A stretch of 64,000 nt of DNA from Synechococcus sp. AG-670-F04 (GTDB lineage Bacteria > Cyanobacteriota > Cyanobacteriia > PCC-6307 > Cyanobiaceae). The notes below the pieces were generated by a model, which was given only the letters and a program-made list of their open reading frames with translations, searched no databases and was not told where the DNA came from. This document shows positions 6,184 through 36,009 of this stretch, piece after piece. The stretch covers positions 1 to 64,000 of the forward strand of contig QCSN01000006.1 of NCBI GenBank assembly GCA_003211515.1, written 5' to 3'. Within the stretch, counting starts at the first letter, position 1; the number at the start of each line of letters is the position of its first letter. The position numbers and the translations under genes were made by a program.

Positions 6184-9057
6184 TCAAGCCGCCTCCGCAA
6201 GGTCTTCCACCGATGGACAGGTGCAGACAAGATTGCGGTCACCAAAAGCATTGTCAATCCGTGCGACAGCCGGCCAGATTTTGTTCTGCTCCTGCCCAGG
6301 CATCGGGAAAACGGCAACGGTCCGGCTGTAAGGACGATCCCAGTCATCGGCCAGGGCAGCTGCCATCGTGTGCGGCGCCCGCTTCAGGGGGTTGTTGAGG
6401 GGATCCATGCGACCGGATTCAATGTCCCTCGCCTCGGAGCGGATGGCGATCATGGCGTCGCAGAACCGATCCAGTTCACAAAGGCTTTCACTTTCCGTTG
6501 GCTCCACCATCACCGTGCCTGCAACAGGCCAACTGACGGTTGGGGCATGGAATCCGAAATCCATCAAACGTTTGGCAATGTCGTCCACATCGAGACCGGC
6601 ACTGCGCTTCAGGGGGCGAAGATCAAGAATGCATTCATGGGCTACACATCCCGTTGGTCCCCTGAACAGCACGGGGTAATGCTCGTCGAGACGATGCGCC
6701 AAGTAGTTCGCCGCGAGCAGAGCGACAGCACTGGCCTGACGGAGTGCCGTTGCTCCCATCATCCTTAAGTACATCCAACTGATCGGCAGGATGCCGGCAC
6801 TGCCCAAAGGAGCGGCCGACACGGGGCCGATCGCCGTTCCGGCAGATGTTGTGAGGGGATGCCCCGGCAGGAAAGGGGCAAGATGGGCCGCCACTCCGAT
6901 CGGACCGACCCCAGGACCACCCCCCCCATGGGGAATGCAGAACGTCTTGTGAAGATTCAAATGACAGACATCGGCGCCATAGGCCCCGGGCCTGCAGAGA
7001 CCAACCTGGGCGTTCAAGTTGGCTCCGTCGAGATACACCTGACCTCCGTTTTGATGGATCAAGTCGCAGATGCTCCGAATTCCTGGCTCAAAGACCCCAT
7101 GGGTTGAGGGGTAAGTGACCATCAGGGCGGCCAGGCGATCAGCGTGCTCGAGCACCCGTGCCGCAAGGTCCTCCTGATCGATGTTTCCCTCCTCGTCGCA
7201 GGCCACCGGCACAACACGCAAACCCGCCATCACCGCACTTGCAGGGTTGGTGCCGTGGGCACTGGTTGGGATCAGGCAAACATCACGATGGGATTCGTTG
7301 CGTGACAGGTGCCAGGCCCGGATCACCAGCAGCCCCGCGTATTCACCCTGAGATCCGGCATTGGGTTGAAGCGATACAGCAGAAAAACCCGTCAGCGCCG
7401 CCAACCAGGTTTCAAGATCCACTGCGAGGCGTGCGTAACCGGAGGACTGATCAGCAGGCGCGAAGGGATGAAGAGCTGCGAAATCCGGCCAGCTCACGGG
7501 CAGAAGTTCAGCAGCTGCGTTGAGCTTCATGGTGCAGCTTCCAAGCGGAATCATGCCGTGCACCAGGGACAGATCACGGCTGACCAGACGTTGGATGTAT
7601 CGCATCAGCTCCGTCTCGCTGCGGTACCGATGGAAGACCTCCTGCGTCAGCCAGGGACCGCTGCGGAGGGGAACGCCATCCAGATCCCCGGTCACGGTGG
7701 CGACAAGAGCCGGGGGATCCCGATCCACTGCAGCAGCCAGGGCACCGATCAGCGCCTTGAGTTCTTCATCGGTGCTGCATTCATCCAGTGCAATACCGAA
7801 GCCAGTCGCCTCAGCGAGGGCTGCCCCATGGGGGAGGACCTGAAGGTTGAAGCCCGCCGCCGCCGCTGCGCGATGCACGGCCGGCGCCCATGGAGTGTCC
7901 ACCACCAGGGAATCGAACCTTGGTTGAACCTCGAGAGGGAAACCCAGCGCTCGCAGTGCCGCTTCCAACCGCTGCCGACGAACAACAATTCGACGCGCAA
8001 TGGACGTCAAACCTTCCGGGCCGTGATGCACGGCGTAGAACGACGCCATTACAGCCAACAGCACTTGTGCCGTGCAGATGTTGCTCGTGGCCTTGTCGCG
8101 GCGGATGTGCTGCTCACGGGTCTGAAGAGCAAGTCTTAGAGCCGCTCGACCCTCAGCGTCTTTCGAACGGCCAACCAAGCGACCGGGAATCTGACGCTTG
8201 AAGGCATCCCGCGTTGCGAAGAAAGCAGCATGGGGTCCTCCGAATCCCATCGGTACACCCAATCGCTGGGCGCTGCCGACAGCGATGTCAGCACCCAGCT
8301 CCGCCACCGGAGCCATCAGGGTCTGGGCGAGGGGGTCGACTGCAACGGTGACCAGAGCACCGACGGCATGACACTCAGCGATCAATGACGTGGGATCCCA
8401 GAGACGCCCATCCGCCCCCGGCAATTGCAGGAGCATTCCGAAGACCTGCTCGTCGGGAACGACATCGTCAGGTTGAATCCGATCGAGCTGAATCCCAAGT
8501 GGTTGAGCACGGGTTTGAAGAACAGCCCAGGTCTGCGGCAAAACCGCCGCATCGACAAGAAAGCGTTTGGCCCCGGAACGTCGGCACACCGAATAACTCA
8601 ATGCCATCGCCTCAGCGGCCGCAGTTGCTTCGTCCAGCAACGAGGCATTGGCAATGGGCAGGCCCGTGAGCTCACTGATCAGGGTCTGAAAGTTGAGCAA
8701 GGCCTCAAGACGACCCTGGGCAATCTCCGCCTGGTATGGGGTGTATGCGGTGTACCAAGCCGGGTTTTCGAAGACGTGCCGTTGGATCAGCGCCGGCGTC
8801 GCTGTTCCGTGGTATCCGAGGCCGATGAGTGATCGGCGCCGTTGATTGGTTGCAGAGATGTCACGCAGGTCCTGCAACGCTGTGGCTTCATCGCAACCTG
8901 TCGGCAACACCTCGGCTGGTGGCTCTGAATCAAGGATGTCTCCGGGAACAACGTCTGCGATGAAGGCATCAAGATCGCTGTAGCCGAGTGCGGCAAGCAT
9001 CCGCTGCTGATCCTCTTCTCCGGGCCCGAGGTGGCGCTGCAGGAAAGGGGAAGACAA
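6184..9057 (-). CDS. gcvP: Glycine dehydrogenase (decarboxylating), P protein
   Basis: 957 residues, the usual full length for a fused GcvP homodimer subunit. The N-terminus [17 protein letters not shown] is diagnostic. The C-terminal half carries the PLP-lysine region [16 protein letters not shown] and the glycine-rich SHGTNP-type motif ([15 protein letters not shown]). The enzyme decarboxylates glycine and passes the aminomethyl group to the lipoyl arm of GcvH, the key step of the photorespiratory glycine cleavage system in cyanobacteria. It lies 54 bases downstream of gcvH on the same strand. No riboswitch-like leader was seen in front of either gene. Confidence 0.96.
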
Positions 9058-9111
9058 GTCCGCGGCCGCGTAAGTGCAGCAGATCGTAAAGAAGGATGAC
9101 CGGAACCGATG

Positions 9112-9501
9112 TCAGTCGGCATTCACCTTCATACCGTAGGCCGCCGCATCGAGCAGAGACTCCAGTTGAGTCAGGTCTTTGGGCCGCACAACGAGAAGCC
9201 ACCCCTCTCCATGGGGGTCGTTCTGCAATTGCTCCGGGCTGTCGAGAACAGCGTCGTTGCGTTCAACAACCTCTCCATCCAAAGGCGCATACATGTCCTC
9301 AACCGCCTTGACGGACTCAACGGAACCGAAGCTGCTGCCCTTGCTGAGATCAGCACCCACCTCTGGCAAGTCGACGAAAACGATGTCACCAAGCTGATCG
9401 ACGGCGAACGCGCTGATTCCAACCCGTACCAGTTCGCCATCAGCATTGGCGTACTCGTGGCTGTCGGCAAAGCGGAAGGAGGCAGGAAACTCGAACGCCA
9501 T
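9112..9501 (-). CDS. gcvH: Glycine cleavage system H protein
   Basis: 129 residues. The lipoylation site lies in the ESVKAVEDMYAP motif, with the lysine at about residue 65. The DIVFVDLPEVG strand and the NDPHGEGWL segment before the C-terminal helix are typical. It shuttles the methylamine group from GcvP to the T protein. Its start is only 11 bases from the end of the upstream PLP-enzyme gene and gcvP follows it. gcvT and the lipoamide dehydrogenase are not in this window. Confidence 0.95.
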   Translation of the reverse strand: MAFEFPASFRFADSHEYANADGELVRVGISAFAVDQLGDIVFVDLPEVGADLSKGSSFGSVESVKAVEDMYAPLDGEVVERNDAVLDSPEQLQNDPHGEGWLLVVRPKDLTQLESLLDAAAYGMKVNAD

Positions 9502-9512
9502 CGGTGAACGGT

Positions 9513-10853
9513 TCAGGCCTTCCCAGTCTGCGGGAGATCAATCAGCCCTGCCGCATCCAACGCCGTGAGCGCTTCGGTCAGAGCCAATCGAACATGGGTG
9601 CGATGGGTTCCACCCTGAACGAAAAGATCGAAAGGTTCACGGAGAGGGGCATCTGCGGAAAATTCGCTGGTGGATCCATCAATGAACGTGCCCCCGGCCA
9701 TCACCAACGCACTGGCATAGCCAGGCATTTCCGCTGGCACTGGATCGAGATATGACCCAACGGGCGAACAGGCCTGAAACGCACGACAGACGATCTTGAG
9801 GGCCTCAGGGGTGCCCAAGCGAACGGCCTGAATCAGATCGCTGCGCATGCCCCCCGCAACCGGTTGAACAGGGAAGCCAAGACGGGCGAAAACGCCAGCC
9901 ACGAGATCGGCACCGATCAGGGCTTCGGAAACCATTTGCGGCGCGAGGAAGATCCCCTGCAACACCAGGCGCTGGAGATCAAACCCGGTTCCGCCATCCA
10001 TACCGATTCCAGGGGCCGTCAACCTGCAGCACGCTTGGCGGACCAGATCAGCCCTTCCCGCCACGTACCCCCCCGCCGGCGCGATGGTGCCACCAGGATT
10101 TTTGATCAGGGATCCGGCGATCAGATCCGCGCCCACAGCGGGAGGCTCCACCGCTTCAACAAACTCTCCGTAACAGTTGTCAACGAAGCAAACGCAGTCG
10201 GGCTGACGATCGTGAATTCGCTCGCACAGGTCGCTGATCTGGGCGATGGACAGCGATGGCCTCCAGCTGTAGCCGCAGCTCCGCTGAATCAGAACCAGCC
10301 GCGCTGAACGGCTCAAGGCACAATCGAGCGCCAACCCATCAACCACTCCGCTGGGGCTGAGTGCAATTTCGTCGTAGATGATCCCGAATTCAGCCAAGGA
10401 TCCCTGCCCGTGGCCGCGCAAGCCGATCACTTCCTCGAGAGTGTCGTAAGGACGTCCCGTGACCGATAGCAGGCGGTCCCCAGGCCGCAGTACGCCAAAC
10501 AGAGCTGCAGCGATGGCATGGGTTCCACTGACGAACTGCAGCCGAACGGCAGCAGCCTCGGCGCCCAAAACGCGCGCGAACACCCGATCGAGAACGTCCC
10601 TCCCCTGGTCACCATGGCCGTAGCCGGTTAGCGAGGCGAAATGCTGCGTCCCAAGCCGCTCACCTCGGAAGGCATCAAGCACCCGCTCCAGTCCTTGCTG
10701 CACCGCAGCGGTGCGAAGCGCCGCCTGGGGCTCCTGTTCCCTGGCAACGTTCTCTACCAAATCCCGGGCTCGCGCCCGGGCGGGATGGTCCACTTCACCA
10801 CTCTTCACCGCGTCACTCCCGGCGCCAGCACTGCAGCATGCCCCCCCGGCCAC
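9513..10853 (-). CDS. PLP-dependent enzyme, methionine gamma-lyase / aluminium-resistance family
   Basis: 446 residues as the longest frame. The fold type I aminotransferase region carries the PLP lysine in AGSLIKNPGGT and a FVDNCYGEFVE motif, both typical of the cystathionine beta-lyase-like family often labelled aluminium resistance protein (PF06838 type). The first ~15 residues (CCSAGAG) look non-family, and a GTG at 10808 in front of KSGEVDHPARA is a good alternative start. It leads the gcvH-gcvP operon, so a link to amino-acid or one-carbon metabolism is plausible but unproven. Its true substrate is unknown; the names of this family are poor guides. Confidence 0.82.
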   Translation of the reverse strand: MAGGACCSAGAGSDAVKSGEVDHPARARARDLVENVAREQEPQAALRTAAVQQGLERVLDAFRGERLGTQHFASLTGYGHGDQGRDVLDRVFARVLGAEAAAVRLQFVSGTHAIAAALFGVLRPGDRLLSVTGRPYDTLEEVIGLRGHGQGSLAEFGIIYDEIALSPSGVVDGLALDCALSRSARLVLIQRSCGYSWRPSLSIAQISDLCERIHDRQPDCVCFVDNCYGEFVEAVEPPAVGADLIAGSLIKNPGGTIAPAGGYVAGRADLVRQACCRLTAPGIGMDGGTGFDLQRLVLQGIFLAPQMVSEALIGADLVAGVFARLGFPVQPVAGGMRSDLIQAVRLGTPEALKIVCRAFQACSPVGSYLDPVPAEMPGYASALVMAGGTFIDGSTSEFSADAPLREPFDLFVQGGTHRTHVRLALTEALTALDAAGLIDLPQTGKA

Positions 10854-30517: not shown

Positions 30518-31131
30518 GGCAACCGAGTCAACATGTTCTGCCGCCTCAACACAAAACAGTAACGGACGTTCAGGGGGAGTGACGCCCGACCACCGAGCTT
30601 TCAAGAACCACGATGAAGATGCACAGACAACACCAGCAACGATCACTTGAAGCCAATAACAATTCAACAGAAGTACCCGATGGTCACAAGACAAAATTCA
30701 CGCCCAAGAAAACAACCAGTTGATCAAGGACACATCCCGAGCCACCAATCAGACAAGGCCGCGACTAACGGTGCAACGGATGACCTTTTGCCCGCCTCAT
30801 AGATCAGTGGAAAGACCATTCACCAATGGCCTCAAAACAGGCCAAGAGGCAGGACTTTAACCAACACATTCTCTACACAGAAATCAAAATAGAACTCTTG
30901 GCTTGCAAATAAGCCAAATTTCATTATTTAACTTAACTAAAAATCAATTTAAAACCCCTAGCAAAATGCATGGAAACCCGAGATTAAAATATGCAACATC
31001 AATCCAAGTTTAATTCAAATAGAGGAGAGAAAAATTCAAGAATGATTCAACCTCAAAAGCTCAACCAGTGAATTAATTTAATGATCGAGCTTTAAACAAA
31101 CAAACTTCAGTGAGCATAAGGCTGGTCAAGA
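30518..31131. other. AT-rich intergenic region upstream of the ABC exporter
   Basis: 614 bases, very AT-rich between ~30840 and 31130. No tRNA or long reading frame. It must hold the ABC operon promoter on the minus strand. On the plus strand a strong Shine-Dalgarno-like AGAGGAGAG (31021-31028 area) precedes a nine-codon frame (31042-31071), listed in the findings. Confidence 0.5.
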
Positions 31132-31581
31132 TCAAACTGTCTTGAAAGCCGAAATCGGCGCATAAACCACATTTAAATCACCAACCTGATACTTTTTGAC
31201 GTAGGAATACCAATCGTTAAAGTGCGTGGAGGCCAAATGCGTCTGCAAAGCATCATAACTAGACCATTCCTCGTCCCAAACATACATAGTCGGATCGTTC
31301 AAATCACGGCTACAGGTGTAGAGTTTCGGTCGATCAATTTTCGCTGTCGAAGAAAATAAAGCGTCGGTTTTTAGCATATATTCCTCGTACTTACTCTCCG
31401 GTATTTCAAGGCGAATACGGCCAATTACGTGAATGGGAGCAGTCGCATCAGCCCCAGAAGGACCAGAAAGAGCAGGCATCCAGCTCACGCAAGCGGCAAG
31501 GATGAGAGCAACAAGCGATAGGGATAAATATTTGCTCCAACGGGATCCTGAAAGCAAAGCCGACGACCAAAAACCTTTCAC
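31132..31581 (-). CDS. ABM-domain lipoprotein
   Basis: 149 residues. The N-terminus has a basic stretch and a hydrophobic helix ending in the lipobox LAAC (cysteine at ~31), so it is predicted to be a lipid-anchored exported protein. The mature part (IHVIGRIRLEIPESKYEEYML to the end) reads as an antibiotic-biosynthesis-monooxygenase-like dimeric alpha/beta barrel: a first strand, a helix, then YVWDEEWSSYDALQTHLASTHF and a terminal strand VVYAPI. Such domains act on quinones, haem or polyketides, or as sensors. It lies next to a giant protein with two similar domains, which points to a common job. AT-rich. Confidence 0.72.
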   Translation of the reverse strand: MKGFWSSALLSGSRWSKYLSLSLVALILAACVSWMPALSGPSGADATAPIHVIGRIRLEIPESKYEEYMLKTDALFSSTAKIDRPKLYTCSRDLNDPTMYVWDEEWSSYDALQTHLASTHFNDWYSYVKKYQVGDLNVVYAPISAFKTV

Positions 31582-31942
31582 AACAAAAAGAAGCTTCTAT
31601 CTTTATAGCCTAGCAATAATTCCTAGACTAAGGCAAAATCAAAGCCTAGAAAACATATCCACCCCAGGCAAAACCCAGACTTCTCAAGACATTCATGCAT
31701 GAGGACGATGGATAGAAATGCGCACGGACCTGAGCTGTCGGTCCAAAGGAGCAAGGATTCACCACCAATAACATGGATCCCATCTCAGCATGACCTGCTT
31801 TTCCAAACAGATCAGTGCCGTGATCAGCGAAGACAGGCCTAGATCGGGCAATCTGAACAGCATCAGATCAAATGATTCCATCCAACAATTGATAACAAAC
31901 TTTTGAGCCAAGTGAATCGCACTTGGCTTGATGTAATTAACC
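31582..31942. other. Intergenic region, no gene seen
   Basis: 361 bases, AT-rich, between the ABM lipoprotein start and the stop of the large cupin protein on the same strand. Short frames here have no protein character. A promoter for the lipoprotein gene is expected near 31590-31650. Confidence 0.5.
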
Positions 31943-34801
31943 TCAAGCAAGAACTGGGAGTTGTCCACTCATCAAAAGATCCATCGATGTAATATACAAT
32001 TCATCAATGGTTTGAAAAGCGAATGAATTCTCGCCAAGCTGTGAGAACTCCTTGGAGAAGGGAGTATAAAATTTCCGATTAATCTTGAGGTAAGGAGCAT
32101 ACAAAGCACCACCTTCAACACTGAATGATTTGTGATTAGCAGGATCAGCTTCTGCAAGAGCATCCTGATCTTCCAGAGAAGCCAAAGCCTCACCAAATCG
32201 TTTCGATTGATTTGGGGAAATAGATTTTCCTGTCAGTGGATCCTGAATCGATCCACTTTGATCGATCAATTCAAAAAGACCATAACCAACTTTTTTATCA
32301 TGTAAATGTGTTCCAGCAGAATCAAGGAGATGGAATTCCCCAGACAATGTTCGCCGTGGTATCTGCACGAGATCGACAACACCTGGAGCATCCATCTGGA
32401 TGGAACTACTCACTTCCGAAAGGCCTTGAGTTGGTGAATCCAAAGAAACAGTCAGCCCGTCAAACTTGACAGACTTTTTACCGGTCTTGGCTTCTGCAGG
32501 GTTGAGGAATAACGTTTCACTATCAACGAGTCCGTTATCAGTGATATCAGCAGCAGACTGTGCCGAAGCAAAGAATCGAAGCTGATCACCAGAAATAAAA
32601 GGAATCATCCGGTGGTTAACTTGTTTCAAAAATCGATTATTTTTCATTGCTTTCGGCTGCTCGAATAAAATCTTTGGCGAGGAGTCTTCAGAGGTCAAAT
32701 ATCCATAAGTTAAATTCTCTGGCGAGGGCACTTTGGCTTTAATCGCCAGATAGCCGCCAACATCATTCGTCTTCGTTTGATTGGTTGGGATGACAAATTT
32801 TTCATCGACCTGCAAAGAAAGCATCAAGTCTGGCATTGACTTCAGAATATCCGTCAATTGTTTTGTCCCAGCAACCTGCTCGGGATAAAACTGAGAAATA
32901 TTTGAATTAACTGGATAAATCACAACGTCACGACTGGCAAGTTGACCAGTCTTCAACATGGGGCCAAAATCGGATGCAAACTGGTTATAAGCAGTGGATG
33001 TTAAATATTGGTTGACCTGTGGGCCTCCAGAATAACTTTCGATAAAAACAAGTGTATTGGGATTATTAGAATCAACATAAAAATCAGATTGCACAGAAAG
33101 GCCTTGCTCGTTCACAGCATCCATAAAATTCGCACTTAAAGCAACCGCTTCTTCGAAATGACGAGGCTTGACTTTTGCAACACCAACCAACACTTGCCCA
33201 TTACTTTCGGACCCTACATCTGCATTGACAGTATTGTTTGCAACATCAAGTTCAGACACCTTCAAAAGATCACTCGCGGTTTCTTCAAACTCAGAGGAAT
33301 CTTGAAGAGCAGACAGTGCTGAATAAGTCTCATAGGTAGATTGAATGACGTAAGAAGGAGAGTCGGTACTCTGCGAGGATTTCTGTAACAAGTAAGAATT
33401 CAGCACTCCATCACTTGTTGAAATCACATCATGGAGCTGCTCCAGGCTATCGACAAATGATCGCCTACTTTTTTTAGAACTAGGCCCAACATATGTATAT
33501 TCAGCTGTCTGAACTACTGTCGGATCAAAAGGCGTCGAAAAATCTACATAATCCGAGGGGGCATTGGGTGCAGGAGGCAAATAGAAAGGAGAGGAATCAG
33601 GATCATCTTCCTCTGTTAGCCAGGGCGTTTGAGACGTTTTGGACCAATAGGAAGGCGGGGGAGTACTGATCGCGGCAGTATCATTAGGAATTTCAGGATT
33701 CCAATTTCCTCCTGCACTATTTGGATCAGCAAATGAGCCAAAGTTACGGCTCATAGCGACATGATAGTCAGGGAAAGTATTGAAATAATCAACAAATCTC
33801 TGTTGATTCTCAATTCCAGTTTCACTACCAATATTTTTATTATTCAAATTTCCGAACGAAGCAGCATCATTCGATGTATCAAAGAAATATCCGATCCTTG
33901 GATCAGGCAAAGTGAAAAATTCTTCAATACCTCCCTCTGGGTAGCCTGGAGTGCGAGACCAAATGGTTAAAAAGACCAATGGATCTCCACTCGGGCTCGC
34001 ATTTCGATAGGCGTGCGCATGCCCCCGAGGGAGATAAACAGATTGTCCAGGCATCAAATGCCCGTAATAGAACGTGTCAATATTGTCAGATGTAATAACC
34101 TTCCCAGAATAATATTCATCTGATGGTTCCGAACCCTCTGGGAATTCGTTTAATTCATAGGGTTCATCCAAAGGATCTCCGATCCAGGAATCCATCTCAC
34201 CCTGAAGGAGAATGAACCACTCATCTTCTGCCCAGTGAATATGAGGAATCGGGCCTGCGTTGTATGGAGTAACGGACAGTGAGATCGTAAATGGACGCTG
34301 AGTTTTAGAACTGGACAATGCATCTAAAACAACCGGTGTTTCTCCGTTGTTTTCACCGTTGTAGAGGTCTTTATCGTTGATGGTGTCTTGGTCGACACTG
34401 AACGTTAAAAATTGCTGTGCTTCTCCGGCTGGAAAGCTATCCCATTGGAAGGAACCCTCTGATGCGAGATTGGGAAGATCAATATAAAGAGGAAGGCCTT
34501 GGCCAGTCTCATTTGTTTCCGTATTGTTGGCCCAAGTTGTCTTGATAAACGATTGGTAATCAAAATTCTTAGCGATTGGCAAAGCCAATCCCTTGGGAAA
34601 CGTATATGCAGGAGCTAAGTTATAAGCTGCATTGGGATTGTAACGGTCTTCCTTACTAAAATTGGGGATTTGAAAATAATTTGGCTGCGACTGAGTGGGC
34701 TCATACGTTGAATCATGACCACCAGACGAAGAATGGCCATCATGATGGTCATGCCCTGGCCCTTGCAAGACGTGACCCAGAATATTCCGCTCAGAAATCA
34801 C
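31943..34801 (-). CDS. Large cupin / tandem ABM / DUF4114-like protein
   Basis: 952 residues, AT-rich. The N-terminus is His-rich (HDHHDGHSSSGGHD, 17-29). Residues ~105-290 form a quercetinase-like cupin: H187, H189 and E194 in PHIHWAEDEWFILLQGEM and H261/H263 in YLPRGHAHAYRN are the likely metal ligands. Residues ~433-530 and ~535-632 each read like an antibiotic-biosynthesis-monooxygenase domain. The C-terminus (~810-935) resembles DUF4114: VGYGLFELIDQSGSIQDP, then GALYAPYL and LGENSFAF, but the usual final GDRDFND acidic motif is missing. No signal peptide was seen; export by a type I system with a C-terminal signal is possible but unproven. The ABM lipoprotein lies downstream on the same strand. 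No close relative could be named. Confidence 0.75.
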   Translation of the reverse strand: MISERNILGHVLQGPGHDHHDGHSSSGGHDSTYEPTQSQPNYFQIPNFSKEDRYNPNAAYNLAPAYTFPKGLALPIAKNFDYQSFIKTTWANNTETNETGQGLPLYIDLPNLASEGSFQWDSFPAGEAQQFLTFSVDQDTINDKDLYNGENNGETPVVLDALSSSKTQRPFTISLSVTPYNAGPIPHIHWAEDEWFILLQGEMDSWIGDPLDEPYELNEFPEGSEPSDEYYSGKVITSDNIDTFYYGHLMPGQSVYLPRGHAHAYRNASPSGDPLVFLTIWSRTPGYPEGGIEEFFTLPDPRIGYFFDTSNDAASFGNLNNKNIGSETGIENQQRFVDYFNTFPDYHVAMSRNFGSFADPNSAGGNWNPEIPNDTAAISTPPPSYWSKTSQTPWLTEEDDPDSSPFYLPPAPNAPSDYVDFSTPFDPTVVQTAEYTYVGPSSKKSRRSFVDSLEQLHDVISTSDGVLNSYLLQKSSQSTDSPSYVIQSTYETYSALSALQDSSEFEETASDLLKVSELDVANNTVNADVGSESNGQVLVGVAKVKPRHFEEAVALSANFMDAVNEQGLSVQSDFYVDSNNPNTLVFIESYSGGPQVNQYLTSTAYNQFASDFGPMLKTGQLASRDVVIYPVNSNISQFYPEQVAGTKQLTDILKSMPDLMLSLQVDEKFVIPTNQTKTNDVGGYLAIKAKVPSPENLTYGYLTSEDSSPKILFEQPKAMKNNRFLKQVNHRMIPFISGDQLRFFASAQSAADITDNGLVDSETLFLNPAEAKTGKKSVKFDGLTVSLDSPTQGLSEVSSSIQMDAPGVVDLVQIPRRTLSGEFHLLDSAGTHLHDKKVGYGLFELIDQSGSIQDPLTGKSISPNQSKRFGEALASLEDQDALAEADPANHKSFSVEGGALYAPYLKINRKFYTPFSKEFSQLGENSFAFQTIDELYITSMDLLMSGQLPVLA

Positions 34802-35139
34802 ATTGTCGCAAGCGTTACAAACACATTCTAGTCACGAGAAAAGATCACCGCCAAAAAATAAAGAGACCCTTTACGTTGATCATCATCAATTCCTGGGGGA
34901 TGAACGGAATCCAAAGGCTTGGGTTCCGAATCAGATCAAAAATCCAACGACATCCCCATTCACCTATAAATCATGGGCTGCGCAGATCACACACAGATGC
35001 TTCTCATTTTTAAATCTTCAGAAAAGATCGCCAAGCCAAGATTTGGACGCAACTGGGGTTAGAAACTCTTTGACAGGCTGGAAACATCGAGCAAAACACC
35101 TAACCCCCTTAAACCCTTGCTTCAACAACCACCCATCCG
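34802..35139. other. Intergenic region, no gene seen
   Basis: 338 bases between divergent genes. It must hold promoters for the large cupin protein (minus) and the dienelactone hydrolase (plus). A 116-codon plus frame is His/Ser/Pro-rich and lacks protein character. Confidence 0.5.
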
Positions 35140-35961
35140 ATGAGCCCACGTAACGTGAACCAGCCTGATGGGTTGGAAGATTTCAAGGTCAGAAACATGA
35201 CCTTCGAGACCACAACAAAACGGGTCTTTTGTTCAGGAACTGGGCCAGCCGTTGTTGTAATCGCTGAAATCCCAGGGATCAGCCCCCATGTGGCACGCTT
35301 CAGCCGCTGGGTGAGAGACGCGGGGTTCACCGTTTACATGCCATCTCTATTCGGGCGGGATGGGGCCATTCCCAGCGGATCAGAAGGCAAGGAGATTTTC
35401 GAAAGAGCTTGCATCAGCCATGAATTCAAGGCCTTTGCCAGCAACGAATCCAGTCCTGTTACGTCATGGCTGCGTGGGTTAGCCAAATTGGCCCATCAGG
35501 AATGCGGAGGGCCTGGTGTGGGCGCCGTCGGCATGTGCTTCACAGGAAATTTTGCGCTGTCGATGATGCTTGAACCGGCCGTGGTTGCGCCTGTCATGTG
35601 CGAACCATCGCTTCCCCTCGACAATCCCTCGGCACTCGCCATCTCAACGGAAGAGATCAGCACGATCGCCGAGCGTATGAAGACCGATCAGCTCACCGTG
35701 CTCGGCTATCGCTTTGAGGGTGATTCGTTCTGTCGGGCTGAACGGTTTGCTGCCTACTCCGACGCCCTCGGCGACCAATTCATTGGCCGCGTGCTTCCCG
35801 ACAGCGCTGGCAACACCAAGGACCTGCCACCGTTCACCAAAGAGGTGGTGGGCCATCCACACAGTGTTGTCACGACGCATCTCATCGATGAAATCGGGGA
35901 ACCGACCCTGGCGGCACGCGATGAAATCATTGCCTTCTTCAAGGAACGGTTGCTCCAGTAA
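35140..35961 (+). CDS. Dienelactone hydrolase-family protein
   Basis: 273 residues. The alpha/beta hydrolase nucleophile elbow is VGMCFTG, a Gly-x-Cys-x-Gly motif with a cysteine nucleophile as in dienelactone hydrolases. The catalytic histidine is probably in EVVGHPHSVVTTHL near residue 245. N-terminal AVVVIAEIPGISPHVARF is the typical family opening. In bacteria this fold opens lactone rings in aromatic degradation, but many members have other ester substrates. It is G+C-rich again compared with the genes to its left. Confidence 0.85.
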   Translation: MSPRNVNQPDGLEDFKVRNMTFETTTKRVFCSGTGPAVVVIAEIPGISPHVARFSRWVRDAGFTVYMPSLFGRDGAIPSGSEGKEIFERACISHEFKAFASNESSPVTSWLRGLAKLAHQECGGPGVGAVGMCFTGNFALSMMLEPAVVAPVMCEPSLPLDNPSALAISTEEISTIAERMKTDQLTVLGYRFEGDSFCRAERFAAYSDALGDQFIGRVLPDSAGNTKDLPPFTKEVVGHPHSVVTTHLIDEIGEPTLAARDEIIAFFKERLLQ

Positions 35962-36009
35962 AAAAACCGCTGCGGCATCCATGCAGATGTTTATCTGGAG
36001 CGCTGACTC

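Follow-up and report, generated by a model that had tools for sequence, protein, structure and literature searches.

A candidate extracellular metalloprotein of Synechococcus with a CucA-type cupin, tandem ABM domains, and a DUF4114-type C terminus

A cupin-ABM-ABM-DUF4114-type gene in Synechococcus sp. AG-670-F04

We analyzed a 64,000-nucleotide stretch of DNA from Synechococcus sp. AG-670-F04 (contig QCSN01000006.1, positions 1 to 64,000; hereafter the window), from an assembly of 2.25 Mb in 130 contigs with 68% completeness, for a 952-residue protein (hereafter the giant) and a 149-residue ABM protein encoded downstream of it on the same strand. A first-pass annotation, made from the letters of the window, had placed these two open reading frames (ORFs) at 31943-34801 and 31132-31581 on the reverse strand, and both lie there. 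It had also read the giant as a cupin followed by two ABM domains and a DUF4114-like end, an order borne out by Pfam, by a family profile, and by alignment; these comparisons show a CucA-type cupin with His-His-Glu-His metal residues, then a tandem ABM pair, then a DUF4114-type C-terminal region. An NCBIfam scan gave no match to the giant and only subthreshold matches to two neighbors. The parts of the giant are as follows.

31943-34801, reverse strand: the giant, a cupin-ABM-ABM-DUF4114-like protein of 952 residues, with a GTG start, no cysteine, and an acidic isoelectric point of 4.46
34715-34774, reverse strand: His-rich N-terminal stretch (residues 10-29, 6 His in 20)
33932-34330, reverse strand: metal cupin core (residues 158-290), with His187, His189, Glu194, and His263
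33212-33505, reverse strand: ABM domain 1 (ABM1; residues 433-530), lacking the helix-2 histidine
32906-33199, reverse strand: ABM domain 2 (ABM2; residues 535-632), with an ABM fold in its model
32012-32623, reverse strand: C-terminal region of DUF4114 type (residues 727-930) that lacks the terminal GGGDxD(F/Y)xD motif

Eight family genes were compared, namely that of the window, a paralog on contig C25 of the same genome (locus L012; about 41-44% identical, 41% by BLASTP), and those of Tychonema sp. BBK16 (L003) and of genomes G150 (L011), G236 (L008), G196 (L009), G778 (L030), and G777 (L031). Because G150/G243, G236/G196, and G777/G778 share genera, the eight represent four genera; G243 was equated with Tychonema sp. 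BBK16 and counted once. A conserved domain order and a conserved neighbor, which the first-pass annotation had made the test of its reading, were both found: six of the seven other members keep the whole order (cupin, two ABM-like domains, long C terminus) by alignment, and seven of the eight genes have a small ABM gene in their vicinity. The remaining member, from G777, has 545 residues, with a cupin and then RTX repeats (HemolysinCabind, 3.2e-25). In the family tree, the window and C25 proteins group at 93/97 support, a grouping that was not starred, and the placement of G777 is unsure. Within their first 50 residues, six of the eight members have 3-6 histidines and two have none. The G196 protein (L009:7840-11307) also has a His/Asp-rich loop in its C-terminal region, from residue ∼888, and a His-rich loop of the G236 protein corresponds to it in position; both of these proteins end in DUF5648.

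The cupin domain and its metal residues

The cupin of the giant matches Cupin_2 (PF07883) in Pfam at 6.1e-7 and, with 29.5 bits, exceeds the cut-off of 27.2, as do the cupins at L008, L009, and L031, and those at L012, L003, L011, and L030 stay under it. Motif 1 of the giant, PHIHWAEDEWFILLQG, holds His187, His189, and Glu194, and motif 2, GQSVYLPRGHAHAYRN, holds His263; these four metal residues (HxH-(x)4-E plus the motif 2 histidine) are invariant in all eight family members. None of the eight has the textbook form of motif 1, with a glycine six positions before the first histidine; their glycine stands four positions before it, as in CucA. The textbook form of motif 2 is present in seven, the exception being the paralog.

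With the family profile, the nearest solved relatives of the cupin are CucA (PDB 2xl7, 5.4e-11) and MncA (7.2e-6), both from Synechocystis, and the CucA alignment extends through a GGIEEFF segment. The giant shares with CucA (Sll1785 of Synechocystis PCC 6803) (i) the cupin core GPxPHIH-(x)4-E, (ii) the downstream GG-(I/M)-x-E-(F/Y)-F, and (iii) the pattern of metal residues, whereas CucA is a single 239-residue cupin chain that is Sec-exported and has neither an ABM nor a DUF4114 domain. Because the whole-chain AlphaFold model failed, support for the cupin fold comes from sequence. According to PMC4192464 and PMC11742986, CucA holds Cu(II) and folds once Sec has exported it, and MncA folds inside and traps Mn; one passage of PMC4335983 names CucA a quercetin 2,3-dioxygenase, after a 2008 paper.

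The tandem ABM domains

The Pfam scan of the giant alone gave one ABM (PF03992) stretch, at residues 447-508 within ABM1 (1.1e-4), which at 22.7 bits narrowly misses the cut-off of 23.1, and detected neither ABM2 nor DUF4114. The six other full-length members all pass that cut-off (34.4-77.7 bits), five of them with two ABM stretches and the sixth, the paralog, with one; the G777 protein has no match. Positions 425-612 of the family profile, 188 in all, align at 7e-10 to both domains of the tandem-ABM protein FN1347 (PDB 3mcs), which likewise has two ABM domains per chain. Unlike the giant, FN1347 has 219 residues and neither a cupin nor a secretion domain.

An AlphaFold model of residues 418-645 reached a mean predicted local distance difference test (pLDDT) score of 46, with values of 56-79 in the blocks of ABM2 and below 50 in ABM1. 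The best Foldseek match of the ABM2 model is 2fb0 (E 8.7e-6, template modeling score of 0.79 on the target), and the segment model has 56 matches at E ≤0.001, mostly of the ABM type among the best 50 listed. ABM2 shares its fold with Rv0793, LsrG, PA3566, and 4hl9, which differ from the giant in being single-domain ABM proteins and show 11-16% identity in the ABM2 fold comparison; these four are cytosolic. Since the segment model built ABM2 and not ABM1, an intramolecular ABM pair is argued from the sequence alignment with 3mcs.

ABM enzymes usually carry a histidine in helix 2 (EEW...AL..H). By eye, it is clear in seven of eight small ABM proteins and ambiguous in that of C25. Because this histidine is missing from ABM1, we expect ABM1 to be structural, and it looks noncatalytic.

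The C-terminal region and the predicted route of export

A profile of the window and C25 C termini can be aligned with the terminal parts of eight DUF4114-type proteins from cyanobacteria of the same family (L032-L039; hhalign 97.6%, window residues 727-930), and the window C terminus alone matches all eight in phmmer, at 3.7e-11 to 2e-5, within a test set that had been preselected by its match to the family profile. These proteins differ from the giant in their N-terminal parts (VWA, Calx-beta, and RTX in L035, the sole one scanned) and carry the terminal motif that the giant lacks. The GGGDxD(F/Y)xD-type motif is absent from both marine copies, and the Tychonema, G150, G236, G196, and G778 proteins keep a shorter (D/S)(F/L)ND. 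Three of the DUF4114-type proteins (L036:3835-16563, L037:446-11227, and L039:46-11604) have 3,593-4,242 residues, ends assigned to this type by their end motif, and 0-6 cysteines. Within the family, seven proteins have an aligned DUF4114-type C terminus, and four of them have a Pfam match (PF13448, cut-off 27): L030 (G778) scores over it at 30.4, and L003 (25.9), L009 (22.7), and L011 (22.5) score under it. The window giant and the C25 (L012) and G236 (L008) proteins have none.

Cysteine is absent from all eight family proteins; for the window giant, the chance of this is ∼5e-6 at the mean of 34 window ORFs, a rough figure because the mechanical ORF list may include spurious ORFs. The N terminus of the giant is not hydrophobic and shows no visible signal peptide (the best 19-residue mean, 0.9, lies at the C terminus), and the protein thus has the acidic, Cys-free, signal-peptide-free profile of type I secreted proteins. 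RTX nonapeptide repeats are absent from the window giant and present in its relative from G777. HlyD-type matches occur in all eight genomes searched, over the cut-off in two of them and weakly, at 50.8 bits, in the incomplete genome of the window itself (G000).

Because the giant is acidic and has neither cysteine nor a signal peptide, and because family members have DUF4114-type or RTX ends, type I secretion is favored, and we infer, fairly strongly, that the protein would be exported by this route to the outside of the cell. The cupin joined to RTX repeats in G777 and an RTX-DUF4347-CHRD protein encoded near the G778 gene are counted for this extracellular reading. The first-pass annotation had suggested extracellular or periplasmic work. 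A place outside the cytoplasm is likely, and the missing signal peptide, the absence of cysteine in eight of eight, the DUF4114-type end aligned in seven, and the RTX repeats in one argue better for the outside of the cell than for the periplasm; a periplasmic location was rejected because no signal peptide is visible.

The small ABM protein and other neighboring genes

The giant gene shares its site with the following features.

31132-31581, reverse strand: 149-residue small ABM protein, with an export-type N terminus and, by eye, a lipobox LAAC
35140-35961, forward strand: dienelactone hydrolase family gene, the divergent neighbor of the giant, whose membership in the system is uncertain
30518-36009, no strand: stretch of 5,492 bp between an ABC-transporter ATPase gene and valS, containing the giant gene and the two genes above

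The small ABM protein of the window matches ABM in Pfam at 4.9e-5 and 23.9 bits, over the cut-off of 23.1, and has weak matches to the solved structures 4dpo (0.004) and 4hl9 (0.03). Its hydrophobic N terminus and an L-A-A-C lipobox, seen by eye, agree with its earlier description as a same-strand lipoprotein with a single ABM domain; that description fits the window protein, and a good lipobox is found in none of the other small ABM proteins. Of the eight small ABM proteins, counting that of the window and one from genome G009, five start with an export-type segment by eye. The small ABM gene adjoins the giant gene in the window, G196, G778, and G777, is separated from it by a CMD gene in Tychonema and G150, and in C25 lies ∼5 kb from the paralog on the opposite strand.

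The C25 paralog lies in a second AT-rich island (L012:9470-17969) with MFS and OprB genes preceding it on one strand and GMC oxidoreductase and ABM genes on the other; the G+C content of this island is 36-51%, against 55-57% on its flanks. The GMC oxidoreductase gene has matches of only 30% identity, in two of 33 other genomes of the genus. In Tychonema (L003:3887-7884), the genes run STAS, isoamylase, STAS, exported ABM, CMD, and then the giant, and G150 has the same order by eye. This run resembles the icfG cluster slr1856, slr1857, slr1859, slr1860, and slr1861, as given in PMC12329169, and a regulatory link to carbon status is possible for the Tychonema cluster. As a functional context for the giant, this neighborhood was rejected: it may reflect shared descent of the site, and the cluster is not seen at either locus of the window genome. 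No STAS-isoamylase run was seen near the G236, G196, and G778 genes, where a CMD gene and a gene of ∼189 residues like one of Tychonema are found. In G778, a gene for a DUF4347-CHRD-RTX protein (L030:12154-14328) separates the giant gene from the CMD gene, and an ORF similar to it occurs in G777 (L031:2927-5074).

Distribution and the valS-ABC insertion site

The giant is sparsely distributed. Across the phylum, five of 386 genomes match at E 1e-10, the window genome included, and among 59 relatives, again counting the window genome, this genome alone matched. A three-sequence profile matched nine of 400 same-family genomes, in full length only in the window genome and with the C-terminal part alone in eight. 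Matches were found in two of five genomes of the genus of G236 and in four of 61 of the family of G150, one of them (G777) in pieces; one scan of genome contigs gave a single locus, that of Tychonema sp. BBK16 (L003). The first-pass annotation had proposed looking for the same order in other marine Synechococcus genomes, and the giant was found in none of 33 other genomes of the genus, so it is not a trait of that group. Viral contigs held relatives of neither the giant nor the small ABM protein. Plasmid and phage records gave no match to the giant, and no search was aimed at mobile-element genes in the island.

The AT-richness that the first-pass annotation noticed in the giant gene is real: its G+C content is 43% and that of the small ABM gene 46%, against 56-66% in the four neighbors ligA, the ABC ATPase gene, the dienelactone-hydrolase-like gene, and valS. 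Of the 25 other genomes of the genus in which valS was matched, 20 served to compare the region beyond this gene. There, the valS and ABC ATPase alignments, with valS ends counted one residue plus the stop codon short, end 7 bp apart in 14 of the 20, 11 bp apart in one, 135 bp apart in one, and >1 kb apart in four; the gap in the window is 5,492 bp versus 7-11 bp in 15 of these 20 relatives. Genome G009 has a small ABM gene (59% identical) at the same site and no giant, along with an incomplete duplicate of the 3' end of valS (L054, 6693-6956) and a subtilase with a P-domain (7063-9561), and G021 has a similar subtilase of equal length at this position (L058:6949-9447). The locus resembles a hotspot of insertion, at which the giant may have been gained, or it may have been acquired before and since lost from G009. 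The small ABM gene is present in two of 34 genus genomes, including that of the window. The dienelactone-hydrolase-like gene occurs in one of the 34, again that of the window, at E 1e-20, and has a host-like G+C content of 56%.

Proposed function and competing explanations

We propose, with a probability of about 0.5, that the giant is a horizontally acquired extracellular metalloprotein that would combine type I export, oxidation by a metal cupin, an ABM pair of its own, and a separate ABM partner. A type I exporter would carry it out in unfolded form, and it would fold outside. Given the rule drawn from MncA and CucA, by which the place of folding sets the metal, folding outside predicts Cu(II) or another strongly binding metal, whose uptake by the cupin might be aided by the His-rich N terminus. 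Less firmly, (i) the cupin might oxidatively open or decarboxylate a small phenolic or quinone-like compound, (ii) the two fused ABM domains might pair with each other within the chain and bind substrate or product, and (iii) the separate exported ABM protein might carry out a second oxidation or an isomerization near the cell surface. In the paralog island, the same-strand OprB and MFS genes suggest uptake of the product. The case for the location is made from sequence, the MncA/CucA rule supplies the predicted metal, and the substrate named here is a guess from the protein families. We count for this proposal the small ABM gene near seven of eight family genes and the layout of the paralog island, with MFS, OprB, and giant on one strand and GMC and ABM on the other.

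Several observations weigh against it. The whole-chain AlphaFold model, built from a three-row alignment, reached a pLDDT of 35, and its fold matches are meaningless. ABM1 lacks the helix-2 histidine, at the position seen in the small ABM proteins, in seven of seven members, and ABM2, which retains it in six of seven, has lost it in the window protein. Since it has neither a Pfam DUF4114 match nor the terminal motif, the C terminus of the window giant may be decayed; that of C25 alone has no convincing DUF4114 match (best, 0.005), and a PF13448 search of the window genome found none, an uninformative result because its controls were silent too. No type I exporter lies beside the giant, since the only exporter-like genes next to it belong to the host backbone and form a pair of the ABC-2 type, and CucA is a Sec protein, whereas the giant shows no signal peptide. 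No small ABM gene was found near the G236 gene, where 19.9 kb of sequence was read, and by eye the small ABM proteins of G196, G777, and C25 (three of eight) have no export signal. The position of the giant at the end of an icfG-type cluster in Tychonema and G150 points to carbon regulation, not aromatics. Finally, the enzymatic activity, the metal, and the substrate are all predicted.

The missing histidine of ABM1 would suit a nonenzymatic binder outside the cell, in which the cupin and the His-rich N terminus capture copper or another metal and the ABM part binds a ligand, for uptake or protection. This is possible, if doubtful: the His-rich start of six of eight members, the second His-rich, C-terminal loop in G236 and G196, the OprB gene beside the paralog, and the noncatalytic role reported for the ABM protein ForS in PMC6689052 all agree with it, but the cupin metal residues are invariant in all eight and the GGIE-FF segment, partly common to CucA, is kept, both enzyme-like traits; most small ABM proteins retain their histidine, and the GMC oxidoreductase next to the paralog indicates redox chemistry. 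That invariance, across four genera, also makes it unlikely that the giant is a surface or adhesion DUF4114 protein with decayed cupin and ABM passengers, as does the small ABM gene near seven of eight members. The weak ABM1 and the divergent C terminus would fit such a protein, and a DUF4114-type region is common to proteins of eight same-family genomes (open frames of 413-4,356 residues, some cut by contig ends).

We regard as highly unlikely a role in biosynthesis, in which the giant would tailor a secondary metabolite like the cupin cyclase and ABM proteins of aromatic type II polyketide clusters. According to PMC6689052, RemF-like cupins (PF07883) such as RemF and ForR are co-encoded with ABM proteins such as ForS and ForU in these clusters, so that the same two Pfam families occur together, and WhiE-ORFI (9lmn) is among the fold matches of the ABM2 model. 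These proteins differ from the giant, however, in being encoded by separate genes within a polyketide synthase cluster and in having no secretion domain; no polyketide synthase gene was recognized by eye in the ORF lists of our loci, where most ORFs were unscanned, the nearest solved relative of the cupin is CucA and not a cyclase, and the DUF4114-type and RTX ends fit secretion. ABM-type barrels include IsdG, and a haem-degrading system of the IsdG/MhuD type was also entertained, on the strength of IsdG and IsdI rows that accompany the failed whole-chain model at E 0.6-0.75 and are not meaningful. We rejected it as very improbable because 3mcs, 4hl9, 4dpo, LsrG, and 2fb0 lead the ABM matches in sequence and in fold, with IsdG not among the matches listed, and no haem transport gene was noticed at the loci.

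Significance of the family

The first-pass annotation did not recall this architecture as a described family, and the cupin-ABM-ABM-DUF4114 order is apparently undescribed: no description of it was found in the literature consulted, mostly as less than full text. In PMC9846622, a DUF4114 protein and a cupin protein are the products of two separate genes, and the portions of PMC4894872 and PMC7020235 available hold nothing on the giant. A bolder form of our proposal, which we consider rather unlikely, is that the family constitutes a mobile extracellular kit with which cyanobacteria process a small molecule. In it, a type-I-secreted Cu cupin dioxygenase metallated only outside the cell would use its own intramolecular ABM pair as a further active or binding site and pass its product on to a partner ABM enzyme at the surface and to a dedicated porin/MFS route; if true, no exported cupin-ABM relay would to our knowledge precede it, and the principle that the place of folding sets the metal would gain a new application. 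The family offers a testable case in any event, because it places a CucA-like site in a protein expected to fold outside, for which Cu(II) can be predicted. If the giant is an enzyme, some cyanobacteria would act on phenolic or quinone-like compounds in their surroundings, by means of genes that are gained and lost jointly with an ABM partner.

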